A stretch of 64,000 nt of DNA. Origin: Sanderia malayensis (lineage: Eukaryota; Cnidaria; Scyphozoa; Semaeostomeae; Pelagiidae). The stretch lies in assembly GCA_013076295.1 (NCBI GenBank), contig RQOL01000906.1, positions 248,001 to 312,000 of the forward strand, read 5' to 3'. Numbering within the stretch: the first letter of the stretch is position 1; each line of letters starts with the position of its first letter. The notes below the pieces were generated by a model. It did not search any database, was not told where the DNA came from, and saw only the letters and a list, made by a program, of their open reading frames with translations. Of the stretch, positions 17,251 through 62,500 are shown piece by piece. The position numbers and the translations under genes were made by a program.

Positions 17251-17261
17251 GTATATCCTAG

Positions 17262-17392: not shown

Positions 17393-17399
17393 CTGCAAG

Positions 17400-17697
17400 T
17401 GCCCCTGAACCAAACAGATCCTACTGTGCGCAAGACAATCTCATATTTGGAAGGTGAGTGTGAATTAGTTGTGACATATGATTGTGTTGTGATGTGTGAG
17501 CTGCAATGGAAATTGAAGCTGGAGTTGAGCTCAAATTCATTGTCATATTCAGGTGACCACTAAAGCATTATGTTTTTTCAGGCCCAGGAAGCTACAAACC
17601 AGCATATACCAGTATTTATTTAAAAAGGAAGAACATGAGATTGTGTGTCTCAAATCCTATGGGAATGCAAAAACCGGCAGGGCTTATATAAGAACAA
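17400..17697 (+). other. Possible exon remnants of copy A gene 1
   Basis: A GGAAG|GTGAGTG donor-like site (17450) and a TTTTTTCAG acceptor-like site (17580) frame an intron-sized segment. The flanking short frames could be kinase C-lobe remnants, but no motif is certain. Confidence 0.25.
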
Positions 17698-18710: not shown

Positions 18711-18720
18711 AGTAATATTA

Positions 18721-19590: not shown

Positions 19591-19654
19591 AAAACAAAGA
19601 ATTATTTTTGCAGGTCCACATCAACCTTTGGTTGCCTGAAATTTAACCTGCTGT

Positions 19655-20190
19655 AACAAATAATATATATGATATGATATGATATGATATGTTATGATAT
19701 GACCAATAAGGCACAAAGTATCCAAGACTTTGCTGCAAAAGTCATCACTGGTGTTGCCAAGCGTGAACATGCAACTCCATTGATTCATAATCTTGGGTGG
19801 ATGAGACTAAACCAATTGAGATCTTATCATCGAATGTGTCTTGTTTACAAATGCTTACACAGTCTTGCATCAGTTTATCTTATATTTAAATTTTACCCTG
19901 AAGAGGAATGTACACCAATATCAAACAAGACAATCAAATGATTTACATGTACCAATGACAACAGCTCGCAGTGATCAAAGAACTTTCTGCTTTAGTGGTG
20001 TCAAAGACTATAATGCATTGCCAAGTCATGTCAAGGAAGCCTCTTCTTATGGATAATTAAAATTAAAATTAACGACAGAATTAGACTATTGATAAATTCT
20101 ACAAGGAATATTTTAGGTTAGGGTTTTCATTTTAATTTCAATTAATTAGGCTATTTTAACATTTTAATCAAATTTGTAATTATTTCCTTT
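19655..20190 (+). pseudogene. Non-LTR retrotransposon 3' end of ORF2 (CR1/L2-like)
   Basis: After an ATGATATGATATG microsatellite, the plus strand encodes NKAQSIQDFAAKVITG (19705 on), LGWMRLNQLRSYHRMCLVYK and LASVYLIFKF. After a frameshift it continues with HVPMTTARSDQRTFCFSG, KDYNALPSHVKEA. This is the conserved C-terminal tail of LINE ORF2 proteins. The 5' part is missing, as is usual for incomplete reverse transcription. It is inserted into copy A of the MULE element. Confidence 0.75.
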
Positions 20191-20288
20191 TGATTAATTT
20201 TATACCGCTATGAAAAACCTTTGTACCAAGGAGTGGTGACTTAAACATGATCATTAAACATTTATAATGATCATTTATCATTATCATT

Positions 20289-38473: not shown

Positions 38474-38692
38474 TTAAGGAGAGAGTGAATGGCCTAGGCC
38501 CGCAAAATGTCAGCCTTCGAGCGCGTCGTATTCCCGTTGTATTTTTCCGAAATTATCTTTAACTGGTCAATAATGGCTTAGTAATAATCTTCCACGTCTC
38601 GGCCAATAATTTTTTAAATTGATCAATTTTTAATGAAATAATTGAAGAAACTATATCGCGGGTAGTACGAGGCAACACTGTGAAAGAAACTA

Positions 38693-39424
38693 CAGTGGAA
38701 TCCCGCTATAACGAACTCTGTAGGGACCGAGAAAATAGTTCGCAATAGCGGGAGTTCGTTGTACAGAAGGGACATTTTTTTATAAAGAATTCCAAACACA
38801 AATGGGCCAGAATGTCTGTTGGACCCTCCTTCAAGTATTCGCGCTTAAATGGCACACTATATTGTTCCAAAAAAACAATTTACAGGATGACAACAGTTAT
38901 TGCTCTGATATATTGCAACAGGAAAGCACGTTCAAGCATGCTTAACAATGAAACATCACAAAGCAAAGTCGATATTACCACTTGATGTCAATTTTTTAAT
39001 TACTATTTCTATTTTCTGTACTTTTATTTCTTTCTGTTCTGTTAAACAAAAGAATCAGTGATATGTTTTTGTTCCTTTTTGCTTCTCATTGCTACGTCAT
39101 ATAATTTCGAGAGGGAATTGATCTTCTTCGCATTTCGTTCCCTATTTCCGCACAAAAAAGGCTCGGTCTTTGAAGTACATCCAGAGCTTCAAAAACTTCA
39201 CCCTTGGCGATAAGGTTTCTCGAAAATTCGTTATATCGAGGGTATTTGTGGTCAAGGGATGGGAAGTTTGGTTCGTAATAACGAGAGCTCGTTATATCCA
39301 GGGTTCGTTATACAGGGAGCATTTACAGTAGGATTTGCTTCCCAGAATCCAAGGGACCGGAGTTTTAGTTCGTAATACCGGGAAGTTCGTTATAAGCGGG
39401 GTTCGTTATAGCGTGATTCCACTG
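38693..39424. mobile_element. pogo/Tigger-like non-autonomous element, TA TSD
   Basis: The ends are CAGTGGAATCCCGCTATAAC and its complement, flanked by TA. Subterminal copies of GTTCGTTATA in both orientations are typical of the family. An inverted, shorter relative lies at 53347-53833. Confidence 0.8.
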
Positions 39425-39489
39425 TACATCCCATTCACGTCTGGTTTCACATTCATATTCGCCGACCCAGCTCCATATTCACGAGGGAT

Positions 39490-40944: not shown

Positions 40945-41555
40945 CAGCAAAAATAACGGGATAGCAACAACAACAACATAACAAATCAGTAGTAAAACTT
41001 TATACGGGCTTTCTACAAATGATTTTAATTATTTGCTGGAAATTATTATGATCTGTAGGAACAGGTCTTGCAATGCAGATATAAGTAAAAATTAACAATG
41101 TGAAATAAAGATGCATTGGTTAGAAAATTCCAAGCCTCAACATCATAGTTGTTTGCAAATAAATATTTTTATATAGCATTTCAATTTATTGATTTCGTTG
41201 CATAGTTTTGCTTTGTGTCTTTATCAAAATTTACAAGCATTTTAGTCCATTGTTTGTTTTAGTCGCTTTGCATGCATCATTTTGTGAAATGAAATAAAAT
41301 ACGGGTTATTTTCACATCAGTCCATATATAGCTCCGAAACCTTTCAACCTGCTTTGAGAAATGAAAAATTTATGTACATATGTAAGGTTAAAAGATGTGT
41401 AATGTAATATTGGTGAAGTAACAATGTTGAACATTCCATTCTTCTTGGAATAAACTTTAAGCAATTTCAATGAATTTCATGTTTCAAGCCTTTAAAAATC
41501 AAATTGAATTGAATGACATCGAAACACGTGCCTTTTCTCGAATCCGAACGGCTAA
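40945..41555. other. No gene recognised
   Basis: AT-rich non-coding DNA between two mobile elements. Confidence 0.4.
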
Positions 41556-41684
41556 GACTTCATATAAGAATATCCTAAGGCCCTGAAATATATTATCGGA
41601 CGAACCATATATGGTACTAGCATGTATATGTATGGTATAGTATAGTATAGTAGTATAGTACCTGTATATTACTACAGTATACCG

Positions 41685-42835
41685 ATACGTCCTAGTTATC
41701 CTAGCTGTCCTAGTTATCCTAACTGTCCTAGCTGTCCTAGTTATCCTAACTATCCTAGCTGTCCTAGTTATCCTAGTTATCCTAGCTGTCCTAGCTGTCC
41801 TAGTTATCCTAGTTATCCTAGCTGTCCTAGTTATCCTAGTTATCCTAGCTGTCCTAGTTGTCCTAACTGTCCTAGCTGTCCTAGTTATCCTAGCTGTCCT
41901 AGCTATCCTAGTTATCCTAGCTGTCCTAGTTATCCTAACTGTCCTAGTTATCCTAGCTGTCCTAGTTGTCCTAGCTGTCCTAACTGTCCTAGTTGTCCTA
42001 GCTGTCCTAACTGTCCTAGCTGTCCTAGTTATCCTAGGTGTCCTAGTTGTCCTAGTTATCCTAGCTGTCCTAGTTATCCTAGCTGTCCTAGTTATCCTAG
42101 CTGTTCTAACTGTCCTAGCTGTCCTAGTTATCTTAGCTGTCCTAGTTATCCTAGCTGTCCTAACTGTCCTAGCTGTCCTAGTTATCCTAGGTGTCCTAGT
42201 TATCCTACCTGTCCTAGTTATCCTAGTTGTCCTAGCTGTCCTAACTGTCCTAGCTGTCCTAGTTATCCTAGGTGTCCTAGTTGTCCTAGTTATCCTAGTT
42301 GTCCTAACTGTCCTAGTTATCCCAGCTGTCCTAGCATGTCCTAACTGTCCTAGCTGTCCTAACTGTCCTAGTTATCCTAGCTGTTCTAACTGTCTTAGCT
42401 GTCCTAGTTATCTTAGCTGTCCTAGCTGTCCTAGTTGTCCTAGCTGTCCTAACTGTCCTAGTTGTCCTAGCTGTCCTAGCTGTCCTAGCTGTCCTAGTTA
42501 TCCTAGGTGTCCTAGTTGTCCTAGTTATCCTAGCTGTCCTAGTTATCCTAGCTGTCCTAGTTATCCTAGCATGTCCTAACTGTCCTAGCTATTCTAACTG
42601 TCCTAGTTATCCTAGCTGTTCTAACTGTCCTAGCTGTCCTAGTTATCTTAGCTGTCCTAGTTATCCTAGGTGTCCTAGTTATCCTACCTGTCCTAGTTAT
42701 CCTAGCTGTCCTAGTTGTCCTAGTTATCCTAGCTGTCCTAGTTATCCTAACTGTCCTAGTTGTCCTAACTGTCCTAGTTGTCCTAACTGTCCTAGCTGTC
42801 CTAGTTGTCCTAGTTATCCTAGATGTCCCAGTTGT
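41685..42835. repeat. 9-bp tandem satellite (T/ATCCTA-G/A-C/T-T type)
   Basis: About 125 head-to-tail 9-mers, mainly GTCCTAGCT, ATCCTAGTT and GTCCTAACT, often in alternating order. A Thr-Arg rich frame on the minus strand comes from this periodicity and is not a gene. Confidence 0.95.
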
Positions 42836-42849
42836 TGTGCATGACTTTA

Positions 42850-44066
42850 TACAGGGTGGGCCAAAAAAATCACCCAAAATCACAATGATCAAGTTTGTTG
42901 GTCCTTGGTGCAGATCGCTTTGGGTAATTTGGCTTTCTGTCAAGTCTGAGGGTCTTAGGACGATGAAAGTGTACTGAAGTTCTGATCTTCTTCTTTGTCT
43001 TAGAGTGAAAATCACCCGAAACAAACTATTTTTAGGAAAAGCATCTGATGAGCAATTTTTTGCAAATTTCTACCATTAACATTCAACTCAAAAGACATCT
43101 TGTGTAAAAATATTCTGTAATTATATTAAGTCATTTTTGAGCAGTTGTAATTTTAAAACTTCTAGTCGTAAAACCTACTGTTGTGAAATTTTGTCTGAAA
43201 ATTGACAACGTTGAAAAACAAAACAAAAAAACTTAGAAATAAAAAGAACAAAAAAATAATTAAACAAGGTGTTCAAAGTTTCCTCTATTTCCTATAAATT
43301 TCTGAAGTCTTTCTGGGGCCAAGTACTATTTTTATAACTTTTCGTTGACGACAAACCCCGTATCCGTTCAATAGCCTAACCCAATGGCGCAGTATTGTGT
43401 ATGTTATTCTCAAGCCAATGGAAAAGTTTTTGTTAGGAAATTCAGAAATGATTTTCTTTCTTTTCCAACCTTTCGCAATTTGCAAATTTTGGATGAAATA
43501 TTTATTTTTATGTGATATTTTGGCATATTGCTTTCCTCTGAACAATTTGAAAAAGACGTATGTATTGCTCTTCCAACGTAGTCAGTTCTCATACATTACC
43601 GTAAATCCTCGAATAAACCCCCACCTTCGAATAAGACCCCCCTTGAATAAGCCCACATCCTGATAATCATTTGCAAGGAAATTGAGCCCAAGTATCGAGA
43701 TATTGAAGTTGTTTAGTGAATGTATTGCAAATAGCAGCAAGTTTAAACCAATAATTTCATTGATTGGCTGCATAGTATAGCATTCATTTTGCTTAATATT
43801 GGACAATAATCTGGCTGAAATTTAGTTTTTGCAAATAAGCCCCCGGGGGCGAGGATTTACGGTAAATGTCATAACAGCAGATTTCACGATTAGAAATTTT
43901 GAAATTGTAATTGCTCCAAAATGAGGAAAAATCAATACCAAATATTTTTACACAAGATGTCTTTTAAGTTGAATATTTATGGTAGAAATTTGCAACAAAT
44001 TGCTCATAATATTACTTTCCTAAAAAATAGTTTGTTTCGGGTGTTATTTTTTTGGTCCTCCCTGTA
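42850..44066. mobile_element. Mariner-like element nested at the palindrome centre, with its own nested MITE
   Basis: The ends TACAGGGTGGGCCAAAAAAA and TTTTTTTGGTCCTCCCTGTA match the element at 29892-30678. A second, inner pair of inverted arms (about 43005-43195 and 43865-44055) also matches it. The minus strand retains a degenerate mariner transposase tail near 43400-43270. It is interrupted by the MITE at 43599-43862. Confidence 0.7.
43599..43862. mobile_element. MITE of the CCGTAAATCCTCGAATAA family, TA TSD proven by paralogous empty site
   Basis: Inverted ends CCGTAAATCCTCG at the left and CGAGGATTTACGG at the right, flanked by TA at 43597-43598 and 43863-43864. The same host sequence without the insert is present in the mariner-like copy at about 30470 (ACACTAAATGTCATAA), which shows one TA in place of two. 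Confidence 0.85.
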
Positions 44067-44469
44067 TAAAATCATGCACAACAACTGGGACATTTAGGAT
44101 AACTAGGACAGCTAGGACAACTAGGACAACTAGGACAGCTAGGATAACTAGGACAACTAGGACAGCTAGGATAACTAGGACGATTAGGACAGCTAGGACA
44201 GTTAGGACAACTAGGACAGCTAGGATAACTAGGACAACTAGGATCGCTAGGACAGTTAGGATAACTAGGACAGGTAGGGTAACTAGGACGTATCGGTATA
44301 CTATAGTAATATACAGGTACTATACTACTATACTATACTATACCATACATATACATGGATACATGTTAGTACCCTATATGGTTCGTCCGATAATATATTT
44401 CAGGGCCTTAGGATATTCTTACATGAAGTCCTTGCCAGAACTGGATGGGAACAGAGGCAGGCAGACATC

Positions 44470-46070
44470 ATGGAAAATATGGCGGAAGATAAGTTTAATA
44501 ATGACGAAGGAGATGATGTTGACCCTTGGCACGAAAGGATTAACCGCTCTGGTTGTTCGAAGTTCCATTACGCTCTGCAGGTTGATTTATTGTACATTTG
44601 AGCAGCACGTTATTTTTAACTAATCCATATCCATGCTTTTAGGCCCAAACAAACAAGAGAAGCTTGGGATATTGCTCCTTTTACAAGTTGTTTCGATTCG
44701 TCTATTGGTTTTATACGCACGGACACTTTATCGTTTAAATTCCCGATATTTAGTAAACAATATGAAAACCTTTAAGAAAAATTTTCGGAGTTTCTGCCAT
44801 ACTGTACTCGCTCCAAAAGACCGAACGTGTTGTACTGGTCCACATCTCCATGGCCAAGGCTTGTTGCCCCAACCCTGAAAATCCAAAGAAACTGGCCACA
44901 TTTTAATTTAAAAAAAATCATATTATCATAGTAATTGTAAGGCCCCTGACAAGTAATTCCAATAAATGAGAATTTCTCAGTGTAGTAGAATCAGTTGTCT
45001 GATGATCGCATGAATGCGTGAAACTCTGAGTAACAACAAAGATATGTTTTTTTCTTCCTGAATCTATCTCTGTGCATATTGTAATTTACTAATTTTTTCA
45101 TAGCAAATCAACATACTTAAGTTATCGGGAGAAAATTAGGATTCACATAAGAACTTTATAATAAAAAAGATGGAGTTGGAAGAAAATGTTCAATTTTTAC
45201 ACTCCTCTGTGTAACTTGGGACATATTTATTTAACAATAACATTGTATCTGATGCCAAACTGCATGTTCTATACGTTATTTTTGTACCAAAGTTTCTCCC
45301 GATTTTGTTAATTTGACAAGTGGCCTACAGATACCTTAAGATTATTTGATTTCAAGTACATTAAACTAACTTGCTTCTTTGCTTGTCAATGTAAATTTTT
45401 TTGGCTTTGTGTCAACCTATTCAGCAAGTTATGGGGCATGCTATTAGAAGTTGATATTGTCAGTATAATGGATACTTAGCCAGTGTTGCTACAAAAATGC
45501 ATACACAAGGACCCTCTGAGGAGCTTTGTTATTGTTATTCCTAACTTTTCCTTTTTTCTAGCATTCTCAATTTCTTAAGATCAGACATTGAGGCAGCAAT
45601 TTTTGTAGTTGTAATTTTTTAAATCATAATTGTGAAAAGATGAAAAAAGTAGTTATATTAGGACTTCCAATCCATATACTAGCATATGGGGGTACCAGCA
45701 TTTATCATATGTGCCATTGTCATATATCAGATGCTGTATGAGTAAATGTGAAAATACTCTGTCCCATATTTAAGTATTCCGGAATATTCAAGCTCTTCAT
45801 ATGATTTTATCTTTTGTGCTTTTATGTCGTTTTGTCTACTTGTGCTTATCTATCAAATTGTGTTCAACCTTGAAAGCTTTAACATAAAGTAAATCCTTCA
45901 ATTTTGATCATTTTTGTTTCTTTCTCTGATTGGGATTTTCATTTTATATTAAGTATTTGTGTTTTCATCATTTGCAGGATTGCTTTGTCGAAAAACAGGA
46001 CTGGAGACTTTGCCAGAGAGAAATTAAAGATTTCAGAAACTGCATGAAGAAACAAGAACAGTGTAATTGA
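44470..46070 (+). CDS. COA4: COA4-like twin CX9C mitochondrial protein, two exons
   Basis: Exon 1 is 44470-44580 (37 codons, ends CTGCAG|GTTGAT). The intron is 44581-45977 (TTTGCAG acceptor). Exon 2 is 45978-46070 (30 codons plus TGA). The joined 67-residue product has an acidic N-terminus (DEGDDVDPWHERI). It then has CSKFHYALQDC (Cys29-Cys39) and CQREIKDFRNC (Cys49-Cys59), two exact CX9C motifs that form a CHCH fold oxidised by Mia40 in the mitochondrial intermembrane space. ISRSGC..H.A.Q.C followed by QDWR.CQ is diagnostic of COA4 (CHCHD8), a cytochrome c oxidase assembly factor. The copy is intact, with the intron in phase 0 inside the first CX9C. The first in-frame ATG is used; the frame is open upstream into the palindrome. 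This is the only clearly intact gene in the window. Confidence 0.9.
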
Positions 46071-48500
46071 ATTCTATCGGAGAATGATTTTGGGGACAAA
46101 TTTTCTAATCTTTCTGGATATTTTGTGTATCCATTTTTAGAAGTACCAAGACATTTTCACTTTTTTGTTGTATATATTTAGGCATGAGATAAGTGTAAGC
46201 TTGCGGTGCAAGGCTCCCAGAAAGTAGTTGCTCTTCTAATCGCTGGACTCAGGACCACATGACTTTCATTCAGATCCCTGACCCATCATACGATCCCTAA
46301 TACAAAAACTGCCTAAATTTCATTATTTTTCGCTGAAACTATTGTATCGAAGTCAAAGGCACTTTTGTGAACTATGAAATGAAGTTTCGCGAGCATATGA
46401 ACACAAACACAAACATATGCCTTTTGATTAACCAATTTTTCCAAAAGACACGCATTGTCGCTACAAATCGCAGAATTTTGCTGTTACTAAAATGCTGAAC
46501 GAGGAGAAGTGAACAAGAATAAACATTAATATGCCCAGTTTTTAGTCTACGAGAAAAGCAATAAGTAAACAGGCGGATTTACACAACTGTATCGTCTCAG
46601 AGCGCCCGAATATGGGCGAGTTCTTCTTTTCTCGCTTGTATATTTGGTATTGAATTTTTCTAAAGACACTTTTGGATCGTCCGGGAGATTGTTTTTAAGG
46701 TTCCTGCTAATTTTTAACTAAATATATTCATTGCAAGTAAGTTTGTAGATGTTGGTGAGTGCGGAAAATGTTGTGTTCTGTATCAGTGTCAGTGTTCTGT
46801 GTTCTGTGTTTCTGTTTACTTGCCCATATAAGGTATGCGCCTCAGATGCACACGTTCAATTTTGATTGGGAATGAGGCTACCAGGTATGATATCACTCTA
46901 CAAACTTCTCATTGGATAAAATGTAAACTTGTTGAAGGCTATTTCTAAAATGCTGAATTGAACAGGAATGAATAGGAACGAACGGGAACGAAGGAGGAAC
47001 GAACAGGAAAAAACAGCAACGAACGAGGAATGAGCAGGAAAGAAGCAGGAGTGAGCAGGAATAAGGCCATTTTTGCTCACGGCAGTGAGAGTATAACATC
47101 ACTGGGGAAAATTCGTGTGAACTTTTTTCGGCTTTTATATTACCTACCACAATACATTGCGGGGAGGCACCTATTTTCATTGGGCAATTTATAATTTCCT
47201 TGTCAATCAAAGGACACATTAACAAAGGACGCGATTGGATTAGTGCAAAACGCAACAGGGATTCGTTGTTTCGAAAATGCGCAACAACGCACGATCAATC
47301 CAGAAGCATTGCATCATCCAGTCGCAATAATTGTCAGGGAGTCGCATAGCTCAACAGGCTTTGTTCGAATCGAAGAATTCAGTACGCAAGGAAGCTCGGG
47401 ACATCTCCCCCTCGCACGCAAAGCAAAAGCCTAGGCACTGCAGCATCTGCTGACAGAGCACACAAAGCACTAGCAGAGATTAGACGAAAACAAAGGGCGG
47501 AAGAATTTTCGAAGGAGAAAAGTGTAAAAATTTCGAAAAATACAGGGAGTTTTTAGCTGAAAAAGAGCCACTACATCAAAGGAGGCGAAGGGGAATAAAT
47601 TGAAGTGTTTTCGGAAAAGAACAGGCAAGGAACGAAAGGGCCAGGCGTGGGAAATCGATCTCATCTCACGAACAATAAAATTGAATGAAGGAAGGGTTCA
47701 AAATAACCTTGTTTAAATAAAAACCTTTTCACATTTTCCTGTCAACATGAAAAAAAGCTTCCAACAGTCGTGGAACACTTGCGGAACACTGTCAGAGATC
47801 ATCTGTAATTTCACCAAAAATTCAAATTCCTGAAAACTTATTCCAGCGAAAGTTTTAACTCATTCGCGAAAGTAAATTCCAAGAACTGCGCTTTTTTCTT
47901 TTTTTACAGTCAGGAACGTTTCTCCCCGCTAGAGTTTCTTCCCTTAATTAAATATTATCAGTAACAACTACCATCCATCATATTCAATAACCAAAGTGCC
48001 GTGAGCACCGAAAGGATTCCCTTTGATTTACTCTACGAGAAAAACAGAAGTTAAACACAATTGAGACATGACGTCATCATTCAAAAATGACCAGTTAGTC
48101 ATAAAAAATCGCTTGTTAAGGTAAGGTTCACATAGATTTATTTATGTTAAATTACAACGCACTAAAGAATTCTTGTAACATGTATTGTATAATCAACAAA
48201 TGATGCATTTATGCGTTTGTGCAAAAACCGACAGGAATTGACCCCTCTGAACCCTATCGTTTTTCAGTGACAAAAAACTTGTTGTTGCAAATTTTTGGGT
48301 GCTAAAACAAGCAGGAATTTATATGGTCTGTCTCATTTTGTCTTTTACTTATCAATATTTAAGAAATGTGAGCAAAACTACAATACATTAAGGTAACTGG
48401 AAAAGCAAAAATGCTGAATGAACAGGAACGAGCAGGAATAAACAGTATGTGAGCAAATAACAATAAACATTGGAGAAGAGTAAAAAAACTATAATATATA
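46071..48500. other. Intergenic, with a GGAACGA-rich degenerate repeat
   Basis: 46955-47065 is a run of related GGAACGAACGG/GGAATGAGCAGG words, with a shorter relative at 48410-48445. TGTTCTGTGTTCTGTG repeats lie at 46785-46815. No gene was recognised. Confidence 0.4.
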
Positions 48501-48508
48501 AAGACGCG

Positions 48509-51344
48509 TTAGGCCGTGTATGGATACCATTCGAACTCGCTGAAAAGACGCTGCAAATGTTCTTGTCGCAAAGCAGGCAAGAATTCATCGGGTACACACA
48601 ACATGTTATTGTGAAAGCTCCGATATCGTGTCATGACGCAAATTCTTTGCAAATGAAAATGATTATTCTGTGGATACGGTGTAACCACTTCTTGGCCTGT
48701 CCCTCTCTCCCTGTATCTTCTTTAATCTTTGTTCACAAGAATTAAGTCGTCAGGGGCTGGTAATGGTGGGTGATCATTTGTGAACCACAACCATAACATC
48801 TTGAGACATTAATACCAGCAACCCATTTAATGGACCAAATTGCTGATGCCGGTGTTGTACTAACTTGCTGCCTTTGAACTTGTGGCTGCTCATAGTTCGC
48901 AACAGGAGCCATTGGTGGCATCACGAACTGTTGTGTTGAGTAACATGGCATCTGCATTGTGCTGTTTACTAATGTACAACTCTGTCCAGATTTTCGTGGG
49001 CCTACAGCAAGCGTACGGCGTTTACTGGAGACAGCATGGCTCACTGCGGCTTGCGGAACAGCCTCATGATCATCATATTTATCTTCTTCCAATAAAGGAA
49101 TGAACTGCTCCACCGCTGAACGTTTGGCATTCGATCTCTTTCTATTGCTAGGCTTCTTTCCAGTGTTTTTTATGCCCTCCAGACAAAGCCATTTCTGTGA
49201 TTTTTGGGCCCGCCTTGGACTTTATGTACCAAGAAATCAGGGCAATGATGCGATTGGTACGTTCAGCCACTGCTAGCGTGTGCTCACATAATTTTGTGGA
49301 TCGATGTAAGCATGCCTTGTCACATTCTAGAGATCCTCCTCTACCTTGTTTCACTGTATGGGTGTTGTTGCTTTCCAGCAGCTACAACGAATGAACCAAT
49401 GTTGGCACCAGGTGTGGGCATCACAAAGCCAGGTTTTTTTAGCAGCTGATTCGGGTTCGTGAACATAGATTCAAGAATGTTGGGTGGAATTGTTTTGATA
49501 CCACTCTCTGATGCTGTAATTGACAGTTTGCAATTGTTCTTCGGTATCTTTGACAATGGCTCTGCTGTTACTGATGACGTGGCTTAAATTGCATTGCAGT
49601 GCTGCATCATGTCAACGTCCTCTTGCTGCTGACCCATACCTGCAGCGAGAACTTGTGAGTGGCCTTCATCCGTTGACTGTGTGACATACTGCCCCACCTT
49701 CGATCGTCTGGCACCAATATGAAAACATGGGTATAACTTTGAATGGACCCTTTCCAATCACTGCACGACCTTCATTTCGAAATTGTGCATCCACAATTGA
49801 CTTCACCTGAACAATGAACTCCTGGATCTTTTTCAGCTCAAAATGCAATCCATGCTTAATCATGAAATTTCCGGCCTCAGATTCATTTTTGGTGTACTCT
49901 GAGGGTGGATCCCCAAGGCCAGCCTCTGTGCGAACTGGCCTAGGCATGGATTCCTTGATGTCCTCTCCCTACAATTAAAATGTTAACCTCAATTATGCAT
50001 GAATCATGCATTATGTGCATTACACATCGAGGAATTAATATTAGAATACGCAGTTACCTTTTCTTTCTTGAACCATTCATAAACGTAATCTTCTTGCTGG
50101 GGCCATTTCTCTGCTTTCCCACTTGCTCTTCAAGGCGAGTAAACTTTCATCAAACTCCTCTCCGAGTTATTGTCTACGAGTCAGGTATGCTTGATGCTGC
50201 CCACCTGCCTGCCGAATATTTCTTCCATAATAGTTTGCTTGTCGGTGGCAGTAAATCCTATCTTCTAATTCCCGCTTGATGTTATCCTTAAATTCCTCTT
50301 CAATTCCATCATTAATGCTTTTCCCCATCACACCACATGCCAGTACACCATCCAACTCTCTCTTTTCCGTTAACAGGGAATGTGCAAAATTAGAATACAT
50401 TTTCCAGTCCTTCTTTTGATGCAGAAGCAAAGGACCAATAAAGACGGGTGCCTTATTTGTTTGCTTATTTTCTAACCCTTAAGTTACGGTATGTTGTCAC
50501 CGTGGGACTGATTTTGGCATTGAAAATGTTGAACGTTGGATCGACCGTCACACTGAAAACTGCCTTGGATTTGTGCAGATAGGCCGACTTCATTCAGTTG
50601 ACGTTGGCTTGCAAGGACGGCAAGTCTGGGTGCACTTTGCACTCGCGTATAAAGACACTGTCCTTTGAATTCTCCTCCTCTCCTTTTGCTCTCTCCAGCA
50701 ATGTAAACATTTCGTCTACAGGAAGGCGGGTCTGTCCCTCCTCTGAGTCGACTGTATTTTTTGAAGACCTTTCATTTGCTTCCCATAACCGATGTTATAC
50801 AGGTCCTTTGGACCTCCCGGAAGCTTGTCCAGATTATCGGTGCCCACAACATCGCCTAACCCACAATATATATGTCTAATATCTCCTTGGTGGAATTCTT
50901 CCTCGTCTTTAAGGCTTTCTCGATCTGTCTGCGTGATCTGGGCATGGCACGTCTGTAGATGGATCGGCTACGTGCACTACCATGTGCTTAACAACCATCT
51001 CGTGTTCGTCGTGGTCAAAAGAGTAGCGAAGAAGCACGTTCTGTGTCATATTTCCTTCACCGTCTGCAATGAGAAAAAGTATAAATTTTTACTGGGATTC
51101 ATTAAGGGTAATTTCATTTCCATATATTTTCGTGCAGTGAGTTACTTACCGTACAACACTGCAATCGTTTTATGGAGTTCGGGATCCGAGCCATTGACCC
51201 AAAACATTCTTTTCAACGTGTAAAGATCTGTACTTGGCTCTGCATTATTTGTGTTTTCTCGAATGACCAACATTTCGTCTCCACCCCCTTGCCTCTCCAC
51301 ACGAAAATAATGCCTTCGAAGACCCTTTGTGTCGCCGTCGCCAT
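48509..51344 (-). pseudogene. Copy B: MULE-type transposase (gene 2)
   Basis: It starts at ATG 51344 (MATATQRVFEGIIFVWRG). Exons end G|GTAAGTAAC near 51160 and resume after ATTGCAG near 51065 (DGEGNMTQNVLLRYSFD). The catalytic region has VDPTFNIFNAKISPTVTTYR (first Asp, near 50535). Near 50350 it reads LACGVMGKS, where the second Asp of the (T/K)DG motif seen in copy A is replaced, then KDNIKRELEDR. An intron (50057-49969) follows WFKKEK at the same point as in copy A. Next is RTEAGLG.., NESEAGNFMIKHGL (third acidic residue), a SWIM-type finger ECDKACLHRSTKLCEHTLAV near 49290, and the tail RCYGCG, APDDLILVNKD, NNHFHLQRIC, LPALRQEHLQRLFSEFEW. The stop is at 48511-48509. Multiple frameshifts are present, so this copy is dead. 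Confidence 0.8.
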
Positions 51345-51465
51345 GATCCCATTGAGTCGCATTTTACATCATTTGAAATCTTCAATCTCTGATTACTGAC
51401 CAGGAAAGCAACATTGTCGACACGTTTGTGGGCGGAGCAGTGCATAGAAATTTCTTTTCGTATTC

Positions 51466-52620
51466 CTATAGGGCTCTAGTTTCCACTGGAAGGCCGGTGC
51501 CAGAATTGTTACCATTGTAAATCTGGCCATCAGCAATAGCATTTGGTTGCACGGACTTTTGACTTTGACGAGAAAAAATTACTGTCAGTGTCAGTAAAAC
51601 GCATTTGATCTTACATGGATCATTTGATTTCATTTGATGCTTTCACCTAAGATCATCACGAATGACTGTATATTGCTAAATACTTACCTTTTCGATGCAA
51701 TTTGTGTTATCTGTATGCCGCTACTTGAACTTTTACCACACGAGTCATCTGAGATTATCGTAACCATGATATCAGGAGATGTCGCAGAGCTTCGTGGGTA
51801 CCTCGCAATAGTTTCATTTAGTTTTGCTGACAGGTCATCTTCATACCTAGAATTGAAATTCAATTCTTGAATAATATCAACCATATTGATAAATTTCTTG
51901 GTAGATATATAATTAAAAGCTCTTTGATAAGACTTACCCTTCCTCTTTCATGGCTACAGTGACAATATATGGGGTGCAGGCAGTGGTAACGTTGCCCGTA
52001 GCCATTCGCTATGCAATCCAATGCTTCTGCACCCTTTCCGTTACCTCCCAACTTTGCCCCAATTGGACGAGTTTCAATAACGAGAATTCTACCGGCTGCT
52101 GTTGCTACCCGGTGAAAAGATATTTGACGGCCTGAACAATTGCATACGCCGATTGATGTTTTTCCATTGCACACATACTTACTGAGCACTTTGAGAACTT
52201 CTTGGGCTTTGACTTGAAAGTCGTAGCTGTAAACCTTTTTATTGTCATATACTTTTTCTTCGAATGAAAGCTTGTGTGATAACAAAGAGATGCTAGATAG
52301 GATAGCAGCTGCTTGGTGTATGTCATACATTGTTGACGTATCTCTATATTCATTGAGTTCAATTGGAAAATCTGTGATGATCTTACTTGTGTGTTTTTCA
52401 AGGGAATCCAATGTCTCCAGCTCTGTAGAGGTATAGTGCATCAGCCTGTCAATGATACCAAGACACAGAAATGCACAGGCATTTGTTCCGTCATTCGCTG
52501 GCTGTACTGTATGCTGCAGTAATTTTGCATCTCCGTTCACTGCATCATTTATATTTGCGTCACTCAATTCAAGAGCAGTAGCTTGGGAAACATTCATGGG
52601 TGGAGTCTGCAAGTCTGCAC
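51466..52620 (-). pseudogene. Copy B: C-terminal half of gene 1, papain-like cysteine protease-like domain
   Basis: After a CTGTGCAG acceptor, a 220-codon exon (about 52620-51949) contains HTVQPANDGTNACAFLCLGI. Its DGTNACAF core resembles the active-site Cys block of papain-fold peptidases. About 150 residues later comes ISFHRVATAAGRILVIETRP, which could supply the His of a Cys-His pair. The exon ends at AAG|GGTAAGTC. A second exon (51847-51690, after TTCAATTCTAG) encodes YEDDLSAKLNETIARYPRS and ends AG|GTAAGTAT. A third, after CTGACAG near 51562, ends PVETRAL and TAG at 51468-51466. The enzyme assignment is an inference from motif spacing. The exon structure is well supported by consensus splice sites. 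Confidence 0.6.
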
Positions 52621-52624
52621 AGTT

Positions 52625-54292
52625 TTAGTAACATTTAGTAAATTCAGCATGGAATCAACGTTTCATCTTTTTCTCCATCATACTTAAGGTAAACGTGAAA
52701 AACATCCCTTAAATTCTGATAGTAGCATGCCTGAATCTGAATATACTTCTTTGATGGTGAAGGCAAGCGTCTTGCCAGCAATTGAATTTTAAAAAGCTCA
52801 TCACAATCTTGCATTTCTTCACTTCTTTTTCCATAGCTGCTTTGATGTCGTTCTGGAATGAGTATCCTTTGTCTGGATTTAGGCAGACAAACATTGTCAT
52901 CAACAAAGCCCACATGTCAATAAGTTTTAGCTTTCTAGATTAGCTGACCGCAGCATTATTTCTGGTACGGAAATCTCTGGAGCCATCAACGCAGTGCTTC
53001 CTTTTTGCAACTTCTTTGTCCTTGTTGGAGAACTTTTTCCCCCATTCCAGTTCCTTTATGCAATGAGGAATAATCTCACAAGTAAAACAACCTTTTCAAT
53101 CAAGTTTTATCTCAATCGAATCACATAACATAGAACACGAATACACTCCAACTCTAAAATCTCACAAGACAAATTCCACACCCGAATCATATGGTGTTAT
53201 AAATTTACGCTGTCAATCAAAAAATACATTAATTATAAGAAGCTGCGCTGCGCTGCTGCCCCGCAACAGTCCGGGTATTCCCTGCAAGGGCCTTTGTCTG
53301 GCATAGCTTAGACCTGGCCTCCCCAAGATCAGCAAGTTTGCAAATACAGTGGAATCCCGCTATAACGAACCCCGCTTATAACGAACTTCCCGCTATTACG
53401 AACTAAAACTCCGATCCCTTGGATTCTGGGAAGTAAATCCAACTGTAAATGCTTCCTGAATAACGAACCCTGAAGATAACGAACTTTCGTTATTATGAAC
53501 CAAACTTCCGATCCCCTGACCACAAATACCCTCGACATAACGAATTTTATAGAAAACCTATCGCCAAGGGTGATTGGTTCATTGTTAAACATGCTTGAGA
53601 GTGTTTTCCTGTTGCAATCTATCAGAGCAATAACTGTTGTCATCCTGCAAACTGTTTTTGGAACAATATAGTGCCCTTTATGCGCGAATACTTGAGGGAG
53701 GGTCCAACAGACATTCTGGCTCATTTGTGTTTGGAATTCTTCATAAAAAAATGTCCCTTCTGTACAACGAACTCCCGCTATTGCGAACTATTTTCTCGGT
53801 CCCTACAGAGTTCGTTATAGCGGGATTCCACTGTAATCGGCTTATGGTTGTAGGCTTCCTCTCTTTCTCTATGACCAAGATTTAAATAGTGGACGTTAGT
53901 GACCAAAACATTGGCAGGCTTTATGTCTCTATGCACCACACTGTTTGCATGCATAAATTGTAGTGCCCCGGTAACATCCTTCATTATGTCCATTACAATG
54001 CCGGGGAAAATGACACTAAATCTTCGTTGTCAATGTATTGAAGAAACTGCTGTAGAGTATTAGCTGCAAATTCTCGCTCGAAGGGCCGAAAGCTAAACTC
54101 GCAATAATCCAGCATCATGGCAATAGGGTTTTCACATAGTGCATAAAAGTTTACTACATTGCTGCAACTTATCTCACTCAGTATAACTTATTGCACTTAT
54201 CTCGAACGATGAAGCAGGCATATGAAGCTTTTTGAAAGCGACATTTTCATCGTTGAATATCCCTTTCTCTGCTTCTGCAAATGCTCCTTTAC
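52625..54292 (-). pseudogene. Copy B: protein kinase domain of gene 1, disrupted by a pogo-like insert
   Basis: After a TTTTCCAG acceptor at 54292 the minus strand reads GKGAFAEAEKGIFNDENVAF with the beta-3 Lys in VAFKKL. It continues NVVNFYALCENPIAMML, a 1-nt frameshift near 53995, ALQFMHANSVVHRDIKPANV (HRD intact), CKLADLGEARSKL (DLG), GSTALMAPEI and LIDMWALLMTMF. It is broken by the TIR element at 53347-53833 in the loop between HRD and DLG, and by two further frame changes in the C-lobe. It aligns block by block with the kinase of copy A (16476-17250) but keeps the catalytic Asp that A has lost. Confidence 0.8.
53347..53833. mobile_element. pogo/Tigger-like element inserted in the kinase exon, TA TSD
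   Basis: Ends CAGTGGAATCCCGCTATAAC and complement, with TA at 53345-53346 and 53834-53835. It is homologous in inverted orientation to 38693-39424. The flanking kinase sequence continues on both sides, so this is a datable insertion into coding DNA. Confidence 0.85.
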
Positions 54293-54335
54293 CTGGAAAA
54301 TGAAACAAACAATGATAATATTTCGAACTTATATT

Positions 54336-54406
54336 ATATAGCTATGATGCTCTTACACTACACAAGCTTACCCGTGTTAATTTAACCCGGGTTAACTTGT
54401 GTAGTG
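54336..54406. repeat. Short palindrome (26-bp arms) at the 5' edge of a non-LTR element
   Basis: ACACTACACAAGCTTACC and the inverted GGGTTAACTTGTGTAGTGT face each other around TTAATTTAA. It may be a remnant of another TIR element, or a target-site rearrangement, where the copy B sequence meets the LINE-like element. Confidence 0.6.
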
Positions 54407-55301
54407 TGTTTGGGGTAGCATTCATAAAGAATCAACAAATTGGAAACACGCAAGCCCCAGACGAGATTAATTACGAAAAATTTATTCGCAGTTTGGAACA
54501 TCAAATACTATCTCTGGAAAAACAGTTGGAGCAAAAACAACAAATTATTGAAAAGCTTTTGACAAACAATAACGTCCAAGTTCAAGCTCTATTGCTGATG
54601 GACAAAGATACTAAAACATCAAAAAAGGAAAGTCACACTTTGAGGAAAGCTCCTTTTAATGGAGACAATCAGAGCAAGAGTGAAAATAAAGGCAAGCACA
54701 CAAAAGAAAAGAACAATCAGCAAGAAAATAAGAGTCATCGCCGTCCAAACAAAAGAAATCAGAATCTGTGAAGGATAATGAAAACAGTGAGCAAAACGAA
54801 AACGAAAGGAAGAAAACAGTTTATTTGGTCGCAGACTCGCTCCTTCATGGAATCCACGAACGTGGGCTTACTAGCAAGCAAACAAATGTGAAAGTGACAG
54901 CTCATGGTGGGGCAACAACACGTGACATGCTTGACCATATTAAGCCAGCATTAAGAAGACAGCCTGACACAATAATTGTACACTGTGGTACCAAGGACCT
55001 GACTGCCAACGTAGACACAATAGAACAATTGCAAGAGATCTTGGAAGTTGCGAAGATCGAATCAAGTAACACAAATATAGTTATATCCAGTGTTGTGACG
55101 AGGGCTGATCAAGCAGGTATGAAAAAGAAGGTATCCAAGTTGAATAACAAGTTAAAAACATTTTGTAATGATAATGACATCAAACTAATTGAGCATAGCA
55201 AAATCACTGATGACTGTCTTGCCACGAAGCGCCTTCGCCTAAATAAACGTGGAGACTCTTATTTAGCTAATAACTTTCTTAAGTTTATAGGGGACAAATG
55301 A
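54397..55301 (+). pseudogene. Non-LTR retrotransposon ORF1: coiled coil plus SGNH-hydrolase-like domain
   Basis: The first frame (to TGA 54771) has a predicted coiled coil (SLEHQILSLEKQLEQKQQII) and a Lys/Asn-rich linker. The second frame, open from within the first, reads VYLVADSLLHGI. Its block I resembles the SGNH nucleophile block, with Ser in DSLL. It continues HGGATTRDMLDHIKPAL, IIVHCGTKDL (block III-like) and LRLNKRGDSYLANNF. SGNH-like domains occur in ORF1 of CR1/L2-like LINEs. The two frames overlap by a few nt, so a single indel probably split one ORF1. No good upstream ATG was seen, so the 5' end is likely incomplete. Confidence 0.7.
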
Positions 55302-55340
55302 ATAGCACACACCTCTCCCCAAAAAATTCAAAATTCAGAA

Positions 55341-55905
55341 GTGCCACGAAATACCTCTGATAATCAACCCGATGACGACAACCTATCTTCTGGCCCAGAT
55401 TTGATTTGCTCTAATATTGAGCAAGATCTCTTTGCTAGAATGAAAGAATTACGACTAAAAAATCATAACAATTCATTAATTTCTCACCTGAATATAAACT
55501 CAGTGAGAAGTAAATATGAAAATTTCACCGGCATGATATCAGAGTATGTCGATGTTATGGTCATAGCAGAGACAAAACTAGATGATACTCCAAAAAACCA
55601 ATTCTCTTTACCAGGGTTTAAAGCACCTATACGGGTGGACTACACTGCGAATTCTGGTGGACTATTGGTTTTGATAAATGAAATGATTACTTCTAAACAA
55701 ATCAAAACCATAAATGTCACTGAAGATATTCAAGCAGTCCCTATCGAGTTGAACATTAATAATTCTAAATGGTTGCTTTTACCCATTTACAAACCTCCTT
55801 GCCAAAACGAGACCTACTTTCTTGACGAAATCCAGAAGGTTGTAGACATCTGTGCTAAATCAGTGCAGAGCCTACTTCTTTTTGGAGATTTCAACATGGA
55901 TATAT
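55341..55905 (+). pseudogene. Non-LTR retrotransposon ORF2: APE-type endonuclease, cut at its middle
   Basis: The frame has SLISHLNINSVRSKYENF (NIN.. metal site), VMVIAETKLDD (Glu of the active site), GGLLVLINE and LLLFGDFNMDI (the DFN block, last of the endonuclease before SDH). It then runs into the 92-bp satellite. RT, and the rest of ORF2, are absent. Upstream ORF1 is in the same orientation 40 bp away, as in an intact CR1/L2-like element. The 3' truncation is unusual, because LINE copies normally lose their 5' end. A rearrangement or satellite expansion is likelier than incomplete reverse transcription. Confidence 0.75.
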
Positions 55906-56850
55906 GTGTAAGTTGTGGGAGAATGAAAAGCAATTTCAATCAGAAAATGTAACTAAGGATGAATTTTAGTTTGTTATAGCTGTATTTACATGAATTCATG
56001 CGTATATTGCGGGGTTGAATATTAATATCAGTGAAAACAAGTAAAAAAGGTGTATTTGAATCAGCCAGGTTTAGCTGTATTTACCTGGATTCATGTCTAA
56101 TGTGTTGGTATGAATGTCAATATTACGGAAAACAAGTAAACAAAGTTGTATTTCACTTAGTTTTTGCTGTATTTACGTGAATTCACATGTGAAATGTTGG
56201 AATGAATCTTAATATCAGAGAAAACAATTAAATAAGGGTGCATTTTAAAACGTTTTAGCTATATTAATGTGGATTCACGTGTAAATTGTGAGAATGAAAT
56301 TAAATTTCAATGAGAAAACTGTAAGTGAAGATATATTTTAATTAGATTTAGTTATATTTACATGTTTTCGTGTCTGCTTTGTGGGAGTGAATATTAATAT
56401 CACTGGAAACAAATAAAATGGGTGTATTTCAATTCGCGAAGTTTAGCTGTATTAACGTGGATTCATGTGTAAATTCTGTGAATGAATGTCAATATCAGTG
56501 AAAAGAAGTAAATAAAGATGTATTTACTTAATTGTGCCCCTATTTTCGTGGACTCGTGTGTAAATTGTGGGAATCAATGTCAAAATCACAGGTATTTTTT
56601 GATTATTTGTTATCTCTATTTACATGGATTCATGTTTAAGTTGTCGGAATACATGTCAATATCACTGAAAACAAATGAATTAAGGTGTAGTTCATTTGGT
56701 TTCAGTTGTCTTGGCCTGGATTCATGTGTAAATTGTGGGATTAAATGTAAATATCAAAGAAAACAACTAAAAGGGTGTATTTCAAGCAGTCCCTGTTAGC
56801 TGTATATACGTGGATACATATGTAATTTATGGTAGTGAATGTTAATATTG
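55905..56850. repeat. ~92-bp tandem satellite, about 10 copies
   Basis: The unit is approximately TTAGCTGTATTTACgTGG-aTTCATGTGTAAATTGTGG-GAATGAATnTnAATATCA-GtGAAAACAAnTAAA. Starts of the GCTGTATTTA block fall near 55979, 56074, 56166, 56258, 56350, 56446, 56538, 56616, 56707 and 56799. Copies are about 75-85% alike by eye. Confidence 0.9.
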
Positions 56851-58408: not shown

Positions 58409-61400
58409 TCATCGAAACACGACTACAAAGCTTAGTAGTTCATCGTTGTATGGAACGATGTTGCGACGCAATCGTAGGTTATACGGTGGGTGCAGTTCCC
58501 TTTCAGTGACTTCTTCATCTTCACTGTCTGATGTTTCAGTTATCTCTTCGGCCGTTTCTGGTTTTGGCTCGGCTTCGCTTTCTGCTGTACTCGGCAGTTT
58601 AATCTCTGTCAGCGTTGTCGGGTGACGTACTCGCTTTAACTTATCGCGTGTGACGGTTTTCGTGATATTGCCTTTATCTGTCTGTACTTCAACTGAATAA
58701 AATGGATGCGCGCTGCGAATGACTTGAAACGGGCCGTTCCACTTTTTTGTAAGCTTTGTTCTTGTGAGTCTTGGTAAGAACATGTAAACATGATCTCCCG
58801 GTGCCAGTTTGTCGTCTTGTGTGACCTTCTTGTCGTGAAATGTAGCGTATCTTGCTTTTCGTTTGCTCATATTTTTGCGCGCAATTTCATACATGTGTTG
58901 CATTGTGTCTTTGAATGTGCCAAAAGCTATCTGATCTTCTTGAGGTTCTAAAGTACTAGAATTCTGAATCGTCGGCCGTGCATCAATTCTGCTGGGCTAA
59001 ACCCGGTTGATGTGTGCACGCTTGTGTTATATGCATAGCAAGCTTCTCGTAGCCATTGATCCCACTTGTTCTTGATCTGCTCATTTTGTATCAAGGCAGT
59101 GGTGAGATATGTTTTTGTGTTTGCGTTTGACTGCTCGGTGAGGCCATTTGAACTTGGATTGTATGCTGTGGTACGCAGCTTTTTAATGCCCAGACCTGCC
59201 ATAAGCTCCTGGAACAATCTGCTTTCGTAGGCTGGATCTTGATCAAATAGTAGAGCTCTAGGGATTCCGAATCGTGGACAGTAATCCATCATGTATTTAG
59301 CTGCTGTTTCTGCTGTGCGATCTTTAATTGCATATAGCTGTATGTACTTTGTGAAGACATCATTCACGACTAAGATGTGACATTTTCCAGTTGCTGTTGT
59401 TGGTAACTCGACCAAGAAATCTATCGATATCAGGTCCAACGGTTTCTCTGGAAAGCTTCGTCTTCCCATGTTGGCCAACTTCTTCTTTTGTGGCTTTAGT
59501 TGTAGACAGATTTCGCATTTTTCGATATGTTTCTTGATACCGTCATATGCATTTGGCCACCAAAAAACTTAGAACGCGTCTGTGCGTTTTGAAAACGCCA
59601 AAATGGCCGGCCGCCCAATCAGAATGGCATAAAGAAACTATGTCTGTTCGTAATTCTTGTGGCAGTACCATCAGTTGTTTTCCGTGGTGTTTATACACGA
59701 GAAATCCTGTATCATCTATAGACAGGTTGGCTGCTTTTCGTCTAAATTCTGAAGGAAATTCAAGTTTGTGTTCATTTTTGTGATGTTCGAGGTACTTGAT
59801 TACGGCCTGTAATTGGGTATCGTCTCGCTGGGCTGCTAATAACTCGTCATTGTCGAATAAGTCTGGGGCGAAGTACATCGAAAATCCTCCTAGCGCTTCA
59901 ATCGGTGCTACGGCTTTAACGTTGCGACTCAAATAGTCTGCGACGGCGTTTTCCTTTCCCGGCAAGTATACTAATTCTCCAAGCTCTTGTAGGTATTCAA
60001 TCCATCGGTATCGGCGATTAAGAACGTCTTTAAACGTCTTTCAAAATGTCAATGGTTTGTGGTCAGCATAGACCAGAAAGTCTGTTCCTCTCAAATACAC
60101 TTCGGTTTTCCTGCATGCAAAGTAAACGGCGAGTAGTTCTTTATCCGTCGTGGCGAAGCGTCGTTCACTCGGTGACAGTGTTCTTCCCCCGAATTGAACA
60201 GGACGGAGTTCTCCGTTGTCTTCTTGGGCTAACACGAATCCAATGCCGATATTGCTGGCGTCGGTAATGAGTATAAAGTGCTTCTTGAAGTCAGGGTTGT
60301 AGCGCTGTGCAGCTGTCTAATTGTTCCTTCATGGCAGTAAATGCAAACTCGCATGTGTTTTTCCATTGAAACTTTGCGCCTTTTCTCAATAGTCCATAGA
60401 GTGGTTCAGCCAATGAAACATAATTTGCCACAAATTTCCTGTAAAAACAAGCAAGTCCCAAAAATGAGCGCACTTGGTCAGCATTGATAGGTTTGGTAAC
60501 TTGCACAATTTCTGTTAATTTAGACTGCAACGGTCTTACACCATTAGCTGATATTTCATGCCCAAGAAAGTCAACTTGTGGCTTGACAAAATCGCATTTC
60601 TTCATATTAATTCGTAGGCCTGCTGTTGCCAGCTTTTGTAGGGCGTTGTCAAGATCTTGCAGATGTGATTCCAAATTGGGGCTGAAAACCAGGATATCAT
60701 CGAAATAACAAGCAATGTAGGCTTCTGTTCCTTTAAAAACTTCTTGCATGGGTGCGGCAAAAGTGAATTGGGCTCCAATTCACCCAAAAAGCATTTTTTC
60801 CATTGATATTTGGCTCCTGGTAGCACAAATGCAGTTTTTGCACGATCTTGTTCAGCGACTGGAATCTGATGATAGCCATTCTTCAGATCTAGCACAGTAA
60901 ATACACTTGCACCATGCAATCGATCCAGAGATTCATCAATTCGTGATATTGGAAACGTTCCCGGCACTGTTTTCGTATTTAACGCGCCGTAATCGACGCA
61001 CATGCGCAACGTCCCGTACTCTGATTTCATGCTGAATCAGTGAAACTTCTGGTTTTTCGGCGAGCTGCTGAACACAATCTTTTAGTGCCTTGACTACTTG
61101 ATTGCGTTGATTGGGATCCAGATGATGGAGCTTGTCATCAGACTTCTCAGGGCTTTCCGCGCACATTTCAACAGTCTCGTTGACAGTTTCCAGACAATTC
61201 AACGTGCCCAATGTTTCTCCTTTCTTCAGGCGAATCTCTTCGTCGCTCCGATTGTATATTGGAAATTTAACGTGTTTTGTGATTGACTGAAAAAACACAT
61301 CGCTCATCTCTAGCTTTTCCCAAATGTTCTCGATAGGTTCAAAAAATGACGTTGTTTCACTCATTACTTTAACTGCTGCGTTCTTGATCTTCGAATGCAG

Positions 61401-61856
61401 CATAATTGACGAATTTGTTGGAATTACTGCTATTCTTGCTACGTGAATGCATGCAGATTCCACGTCTATGTTTTCCCGCCAATACTTTATCACTACACTT
61501 GCATCGTTTTGTGGTATGAATGTGAGCAGTTTATTGTCATTGTCTCTTACTGTTCCTTTAAGCTTTAATTCGGTTTGCATACCTGAAATATTAGATGTGA
61601 TGCCTGATGAAATTAGTATTGGTTGATATTCCAAGACATGCGAGGAACCATCTTCTCTGAAAAACTGCATATTTAGATGAGCTACGCCTTCTATCTCAAA
61701 ATTATTTCCAGCTATGCCAACACCACTTCGTCCGGCCGGTATTAATGGTGGACGAGACGGTAGTTTATTGAAAGTCTCTGTTGTCATCATAGAGTACATG
61801 CTTCCCGTATCGTATAAAAATTCTACCTTTGCGCCTCCAATATTAACTTGTAACAT
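58409..61856 (-). pseudogene. Ty3/Gypsy pol (protease, RT, RNase H, integrase), frameshifted
   Basis: In order on the minus strand. Protease: VEFLYDTGSMYSMM (61820). Reverse transcriptase: LRMCVDYGALNTKTVPGTFP, VFTVLDLKNGYHQIPV (first Asp) and IACYFDDILVFSPNL (FDD box). RNase H: FATTDKELLAVYFACRKTEV, YADHKPLTF. Integrase zinc region: LCHSDWAAGHFGVFKTHRR. Catalytic core: ISIDFLVELPTTATG, LLFDQDPAYES, NPSSNGLTEQSN (D, D, E). C-terminal GPY/F-like block: KKWNGPFQVI. The order RT-RNaseH-IN is Ty3/Gypsy. There are at least four frameshifts and a deletion just before the RT, where the protease-side frame jumps directly to LRMCVDY. It cannot make an intact polyprotein. Confidence 0.9.
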
Positions 61857-62500
61857 AATCCGCGATACTGGTTTGATTTTCGCTGCGCTTTGGCTCCAAC
61901 TAGCATTTTACCGGCTGATGATGATGGCGATGTTTCATTTGCTGCTCTTGCAGACCTGCAATATTTTGCAATATGTCCCTGACGCTTACACTTGTGGCAA
62001 GTTTTCAATTTATAACACTGTGATTTCGTATGGCCTATATGTCCACAGTTTTCGCACTGGTTTTCCGGTTTCCTTTCTTGCTTCTCGGTCACGCGTTCAA
62101 TTTGTGTTGTCAATCTTTCTATCATCGCTTCTAGCTTATCCATTCGATCATCGGGCGGAGAGCTAGTTCCGCTCCCCGCCGCCAGCAAACCTTCTTGCCT
62201 ATGTAACGCATTGCTGCCTGCTGCAGAGTTAGCAAGTTCAAGTATACTTTCTAACGAGCATTTTCCCGTTAACTGCAACAATTTTGCTGGTTCTTGGACT
62301 TCGGGTACTAGCTTGGGCAAGGTGTGATTCTGAGCGATTGATTCAATCACCCCATTGTCTGTAATTCCGTAAAGTTCTTTGATAACCGACTTAATTTAGT
62401 CCAACGCATTTAGTTGTGCCTCGAATTGTAACACCCATGTATTAAAGCTTACAAAGTTGTCTCCTTTAAAATTTTGTATCGCCGTAATTTTTCCAGGCAT
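61823..62500 (-). pseudogene. Ty3/Gypsy gag with zinc knuckles
   Basis: The start is ATG 62500 (MPGKITAIQNFKGDNF). It has FNTWVLQFEAQLNALD, an in-frame stop near 62392, and VIKELYGITDNGVIE. A nucleocapsid with two CCHC knuckles, CENCGHIGHTKSQC and CHKCKRQGHIAKYC, lies near 62055-61965. Capsid sequence between LNALD and IKSVIK is shorter than expected, so there is probably an internal deletion. It overlaps pol by about 34 nt in another frame, as at gag-pol frameshift sites or after mutation. Confidence 0.75.

Follow-up and report, generated by a model that had tools for sequence, protein, structure and literature searches.

Why would a Mutator-like element (MULE) of a jellyfish travel with a protein kinase? 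The question is raised by a 64,000-nucleotide stretch of the Sanderia malayensis genome (GenBank assembly GCA_013076295.1, contig RQOL01000906.1, positions 248,001 to 312,000; hereafter the window), in which an initial annotation, made from the letters alone, placed two minus-strand genes, one joining a kinase to a papain-like domain and one coding for a MULE transposase, and proposed that both belong to a single mobile unit, here called copy B. With a probability of roughly 0.6, we read this locus as a relic of an animal MULE lineage with an accessory gene for a kinase fused to a viral tegument-like deubiquitinase (VTD) domain, an estimate that takes structure and mechanism together and weights structure above mechanism. 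The sequences show a unit bounded by terminal inverted repeats (TIRs) and target-site duplications (TSDs), genome-wide linkage, co-divergence, conserved active-site residues of both enzymes, and homologues in other genomes.

In copy B, the kinase motifs GKGAFA, VAFKKL, HRDIKPAN, ADLGEAR, APE and DMWAL were found on the minus strand in the order claimed, followed, again as claimed, by an NDGTNACAF block and a MULE-like transposase with a SWIM-like finger and a Cys/His tail. An 83-aa catalytic-loop piece scores above the Pfam Pkinase cut-off (E 1.8e-9). Frames, together with the alignment of intact relatives, give a 5' to 3' order of kinase pieces, protease-like domain, short Ser-rich stretch and transposase, and this order is more than chance because both genes have intact relatives that align here in that very order. 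The features are as follows.

46,936 to 54,406, minus strand: remnant of a two-gene MULE element (copy B), from blastn of the element at locus L027 against the window, with matches from 54,406 down to 46,933-46,936; 5' end missing.
52,712 to 54,341, minus strand: broken protein kinase gene, from frames, Pfam Pkinase and tblastn with the L031, L038 and L040 kinases.
About 53,345 to 53,835, no strand assigned: TIR element of ~490 bp, read from the sequence, with ends CAGTGGAATCCCGCTATAACGAAC and a duplicated TA, splitting the kinase; we take it to be Tigger/pogo-like.
51,863 to 52,624, minus strand: VTD-domain open frame containing NDGTNACAFLCLG, catalytic Cys present and His replaced by Arg, from frames, tblastn and the fold of a homologue.
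About 51,688 to 51,846, minus strand: presumed Ser-rich linker exon in the VTD-transposase interval, from the frame; its 159-nt homologue in L027 can be spliced in frame to either neighbour.
48,512 to 51,562, minus strand: broken MULE transposase gene with N-terminal exon, DDE core, SWIM-like finger and Cys/His tail, from frames, genome searches and tblastn.
48,028 to 48,356, no strand assigned: inner part of the 3' TIR, 91% identical to both L027 TIRs.
46,936 to 47,072, no strand assigned: outer part of the 3' TIR, 80-87% identical to the L027 TIR ends.
46,936: terminal motif GGCTATTTCTAAAATGCTGAA, from a motif scan.

Copy B is a dead remnant, and neither gene is intact: the kinase pieces are spread over all three frames and split by the ~490-bp element, relatives of which also lie at 38,691-39,426. 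The bounds first given, 48,509-54,292, were too short, and the two parts of the 3' TIR are separated by an insertion of ~950 bp. The 'downstream His motif' of the initial annotation is probably other than catalytic; the catalytic His reads Arg in this copy (ETR vs [DE]TH). On the 5' side recognisable element sequence ends at 54,406, adjoining plus-strand LINE-like ORFs (54,319-55,952, by eye SGNH-hydrolase-like and then endonuclease-like), and because this end is missing the evidence on the 5' TIR and the TSD comes from other copies. The locus recurs in the assembly as L025, 99.6% identical over 9.9 kb including the flanks, which is a haplotype or duplicate of the same locus and no second transposition.

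Inverted ends of ~200-660 bp surround the genes in six of the 21 oriented loci (L027, L036, L037, L038, L040 and L044), and perfect 9-10-bp TSDs stand beside a terminal GGCTA motif in five of them.

L040: TSD ATTTCTAAAA
L037: TSD TTTGTACGAC
L038: TSD CATTTTGGT
L036: TSD ATCAGCAACA
L044: TSD TTACGAAATT

In L037, L038 and L040 the TIRs enclose kinase, protease domain and transposase, and in L036 they enclose both genes as well, its kinase-protease gene having an internal deletion; the search for shared TIRs and TSDs suggested by the initial annotation has therefore yielded four copies in which these enclose both genes. In L027 the left end is degraded and the TSD matches at ~8/10 bases; this locus is taken with L028 as one duplicated locus because their 3' flank is common; L033 has a 9-bp repeat lying six bases outside the termini. 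Six different terminal sequences occur among the copies, and the pairing of kinase-VTD gene and transposase is therefore old. In full-length form the element is ~8.1-8.5 kb, with the kinase-VTD gene upstream of the transposase in the same direction, and the two almost certainly form a stable two-gene mobile unit.

Linkage was followed through the whole assembly (184 Mb in 918 contigs), with protease domain, kinase and transposase as queries; since only the best candidates are scored, the counts are lower bounds. Seventeen protease-domain loci were counted after four probable assembly duplicates were dropped (C303:5855562, C675:5350885, C679:138130 and C780:3989), and at 14 of them the nearest listed transposase match lies downstream, 0.9-5.5 kb away and in the same orientation, against a chance rate of 0.0024 per locus, in agreement with the proposal of one mobile unit. 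No listed transposase match lies upstream or on the opposite strand within 10 kb of any of the 17. Six weak host-like kinases, counted separately, have a transposase within 10 kb in no case, and kinase-only places have one in 5/15. A kinase or protease gene lies upstream within 10 kb at 24 of 87 transposase places (assembly duplicates kept), so that the kinase gene goes with one part of the MULE family, plus broken copies.

The two genes have also diverged together. Protein distances of kinase and transposase correlate with a Mantel r of 0.87 (15 elements, 104 pairs). Over nine dereplicated elements r is 0.55 (P 0.0008), a value weakened by kinase distances that in many cases reach 0.55-0.75 and are thus close to saturation. 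Nei-Gojobori dN/dS was taken in 22 comparisons, each of at least 50 codons and with dS < 0.9, and is 0.26-0.61 in 18 and undefined in one, values that mix selected and free decay because several copies are broken. Between L038 and L041 it is 0.26 for the kinase, 0.34 for the VTD, and 0.29 and 0.29 for the transposase.

Open frames of 671 aa (L038) and 681 aa (L040) carry the kinase above the Pfam cut-off (E 4e-31 and 3e-30, respectively), far above the scores of host-like kinases in the same genome (E 1e-6 and weaker). The element copies have the ATP Lys, HRD and DFG motifs, with HRD kept in 26/26 kinases aligned; the HRD loop, and the DGTN-x-C and TH...G-x-GN motifs of the second domain, are invariant in six copies and the homologues, across 31-42% identity. 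No clear kinase class emerged, the best solved chains being Chk2, then EGFR, greatwall, OSR1, ULK1 and JAK2, at 2e-10 and weaker. A first protein search returned a single homologue, P0001; a four-sequence profile search recovered it again in a set of 42 proteins (E <= 0.01), the last few matching over the kinase part only. These include P0152 from Acropora millepora and, judged by eye, P0122 and P0123, which match the L031 copy, and P0153, which resembles L033. The kinase-VTD gene of L031 (3759-5390) and L032 (C289, C675) has a 5' TIR motif and a deleted DFG Asp, with no transposase match within 4.6 kb; gene models for this type exist (P0122, P0123), and from sequence it is possible that these are solo or domesticated, kinase-dead copies.

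The 'papain-like' label of the second domain could be made more specific. The hallmark of VTDs is a Cys and an invariant Asp-x-His (PMC9741609). An alignment of 33 of the 42 homologues (A5, leaving out P0122, P0153 and P0156-P0162) has the catalytic Cys in 33/33, the His in 29/30 and the Asp in 27/29, with Glu replacing the Asp of Asp-x-His in the subfamily of the window copy. The predicted fold of a homologue is papain-like and closest to solved VTDs, to which, as to herpesvirus large tegument proteins, identity is ~10% (8add, 8adb, 8adc, 2j7q); the fusion to a kinase sets the present, predicted VTD apart from these. Sequence methods gave little: PF04843 matches 2/33 members weakly (best E 0.059), the best hit to solved structures is unrelated (E 0.87), and NCBIfam has no match. 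Nine and eight pattern matches in viral contigs and prokaryote genomes, respectively, yielded none confirmed. An OTU domain was considered and rejected, with no OTU family among the Pfam matches of the element pieces or 25 of the 29 families listed for the homologues. The domain very probably belongs to the VTD fold family, and intact copies probably encode an active deubiquitinase.

The transposase has conserved D, D and E residues (in an alignment, A6, that includes P0026 twice) and an RNase H-like fold, for which the best structural match is ISCth4 (6xgx, IS256 family); the model, of P0026, is poor outside residues ~300-650, and P0026 is without the Cys/His tail. ISCth4 is a bacterial transposase, from which the animal element differs in its long TIRs, introns and second gene. 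No Pfam MULE or Transposase_mut match was found at E <= 1 in the transposase pieces of this genome, but homologue P0074 is above the PF10551 cut-off, and P0078 and P0101 are above that of PF00872. The SWIM-like finger, C-x3-C-x7-C-x-H, is seen by eye in L036 and L044, and its pattern in 16/121 fetched proteins, many of which end before the finger position; such a finger is absent from some MULE groups (PMC6446971). The Cys/His tail that follows it (C-x2-C ... HFH or YFH ... C) had been called novel; it is indeed present and has no Pfam family above cut-off, but it recurs in L036 (1833-3122), in L038 (7742-8707) and, by eye, at the C-terminus of P0074, a MULE protein from another source. Long TIRs, 9-10-bp TSDs (outside the window copy), DDE residues and SWIM-like finger together place the element in the Mutator superfamily.

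Several observations weigh against the reading of a MULE lineage with its own kinase-VTD gene. Three of the 17 VTD loci are without a listed transposase within 10 kb, and although one, C569:6555389 (L030), has a transposase N-terminal piece ~0.5 kb downstream by tblastn, C289/C675 and C859:6130248 have no tblastn match in the 4.6 kb fetched. Transposase copies with no kinase nearby and no common TIR boundaries had been named at the outset as telling against a single unit; 63 of the 87 transposase places do lack an upstream kinase or VTD gene, and common TIR bounds were nevertheless found. In L046 (C569:320500-328499) the kinase lies upstream of the transposase with no VTD match between at E 1e-5, which may reflect a kinase-only variant or a decayed VTD, and L044 is TSD-bounded yet without kinase, although it is read as a deletion derivative because the transposase N-terminal exon is missing too. 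In three comparisons dN/dS is above 1: L040 v L039 in the VTD (1.97, 16 changes) and the transposase N-part (1.06, 5 changes), and L040 v L043, a broken copy, in the VTD (1.23). Foldseek ranks AvrPphB (1ukf) slightly above VTD 8add. Linkage in another species rests on a single shared figure, with the kinase-VTD protein P0129 and the transposase homologue P0038 both listing an 872,090-bp contig, which they probably share. Finally, 10/15 kinase-only places have no transposase within 10 kb, as would be expected had MULEs landed, by chance or insertion preference, beside a dispersed kinase family; given 14/17 linked loci against a chance rate of 0.0024 per locus, such neighbourhood is exceedingly improbable, and insertion beside a host kinase family is ruled out by the TIRs and TSDs around both genes.

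Some of the same exceptions would suit a hitchhiker, that is, a captured host kinase-deubiquitinase gene carried without a role in transposition: MULEs take up host sequence (PMC6446971), many transposase places do without the gene, and three comparisons exceed a dN/dS of 1. Motifs conserved across 31-42% identity, the co-divergence of kinase and transposase, dN/dS mostly below 0.62, the six terminal types and kinase scores far above those of the host-like kinases make this unlikely, and a recent capture of a host gene is not borne out by the data.

A different gene structure has more to recommend it, although it remains doubtful: kinase, VTD, Ser-rich linker and transposase might be spliced into a single polyprotein. 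In L027 the 159-nt Ser-rich exon can be joined in frame, at phase-2 introns, to the VTD exon before it and the transposase N-exon after it; a comparable Ser-rich exon is found in L037 (among five solutions) and L040 (among four), and L037, L038 and L040 have strong splice donors past the VTD. L038 itself allows direct joins only, at weak sites, L036 and the decayed window copy gave no in-frame solution, and with so many candidate sites in-frame joins are expected by chance. The gene model P0026 of Dendronephthya gigantea consists of the transposase only and has a start of its own, and eight of the 19 homologues with the C-terminal motif of the domain end 3-4 residues past it, and seven more within 10, ends that may be true stops or read-through of the donor into an intron.

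If the two-gene lineage is accepted, the kinase-VTD protein could be tentatively regarded as an accessory factor, by analogy with other transposon-borne deubiquitinases, that would remove ubiquitin from the transposase or host factors. This would prevent proteasomal loss of the transposase or ubiquitin-dependent silencing of the element, and the kinase part may act on the same complex, or target or switch the deubiquitinase. It is a more speculative step to see in an own kinase-deubiquitinase, kept over deep divergence and in some members fused with the transposase, a self-contained switch against ubiquitin-based host control. Retention for binding in place of catalysis would fit the L031/L032 genes without DFG Asp, the window copy without catalytic His, and the inactive VTDs reported in Drosophila (PMC9741609), but the conservation of Cys (33/33), His (29/30) and HRD (26/26) makes such a scaffold improbable.

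The surroundings of copy B are rich in other repeats, including a second remnant of the element.

16,476 to 22,379, plus strand: copy A remnant, from tblastn, with kinase at 16,476-17,268 and transposase at 20,283-22,379 in the order of copy B; transposase match C859:268283-268480.
23,634: terminal motif GGCTATCTTTAAAACACC, from the motif scan, which may be the 3' end of copy A.
14,315 to 16,154, minus strand: ORFs of a further retroelement, reverse-transcriptase-like, immediately upstream of copy A.
41,499 to 42,844 and 44,024 to 44,623: large minisatellite, its short period coding for Pro/Ser/Cys, with several open frames on either strand.
Near 57.8 kb: gap of 100 N.
58,409 to 62,395, minus strand: ORFs that by eye look like those of a Gypsy-type LTR retrotransposon (gag, protease, reverse transcriptase, integrase).

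Helitrons and Helentrons encode a Rep/helicase protein and are not known to have TIRs or TSDs. Membership of that group is ruled out for the present element by its DDE transposase, TIRs and TSDs, and its VTD differs further in being fused to a kinase. The two nonetheless have in common a transposon-encoded VTD-type deubiquitinase with Cys...Asp-x-His: VTD and OTU domains occur in Helitron/Helentron elements, VTDs elsewhere too, cnidarian VTD genes are fused to transposon-associated regions, and Helitron VTDs were suggested by the authors to protect proteins needed for transposition from degradation (PMC9741609). MULEs with a second ORF or domain include MuDR-6_HM (OTU), MULE-Co (unknown ORF), Phytophthora MULEs (SET) and plant MUDR types (PMD), and resemble the present element in the Mutator-type transposase, long TIRs, 8-10-bp TSDs and extra ORF or domain, but not in its kinase and VTD, found here instead of an OTU domain (PMC6446971). 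In the available text of these papers no kinase appears in Table 1 or the wording of PMC6446971, and the word occurs 0 times in PMC9741609; the literature searched, in listings and abstract openings, described no kinase of this type encoded by a transposon.

Deubiquitinases have turned up repeatedly in mobile DNA (VTD and OTU domains in Helitrons, OTU in one group of MULEs), a hint that transposons and their hosts contend over ubiquitin. With a MULE lineage in which deubiquitinase and kinase form one protein, both active sites are kept and homologues occur in coral and other genomes, there is a defined enzyme on which this can be tested. MULEs also join the transposons by which VTDs may have been dispersed among animals, and protein kinases join the enzymes that belong to DNA transposons themselves. 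Should the selected kinase-deubiquitinase switch prove true, it would mark the first time that a protein kinase is recognised as belonging, stably and under selection, to an autonomous DNA transposon.

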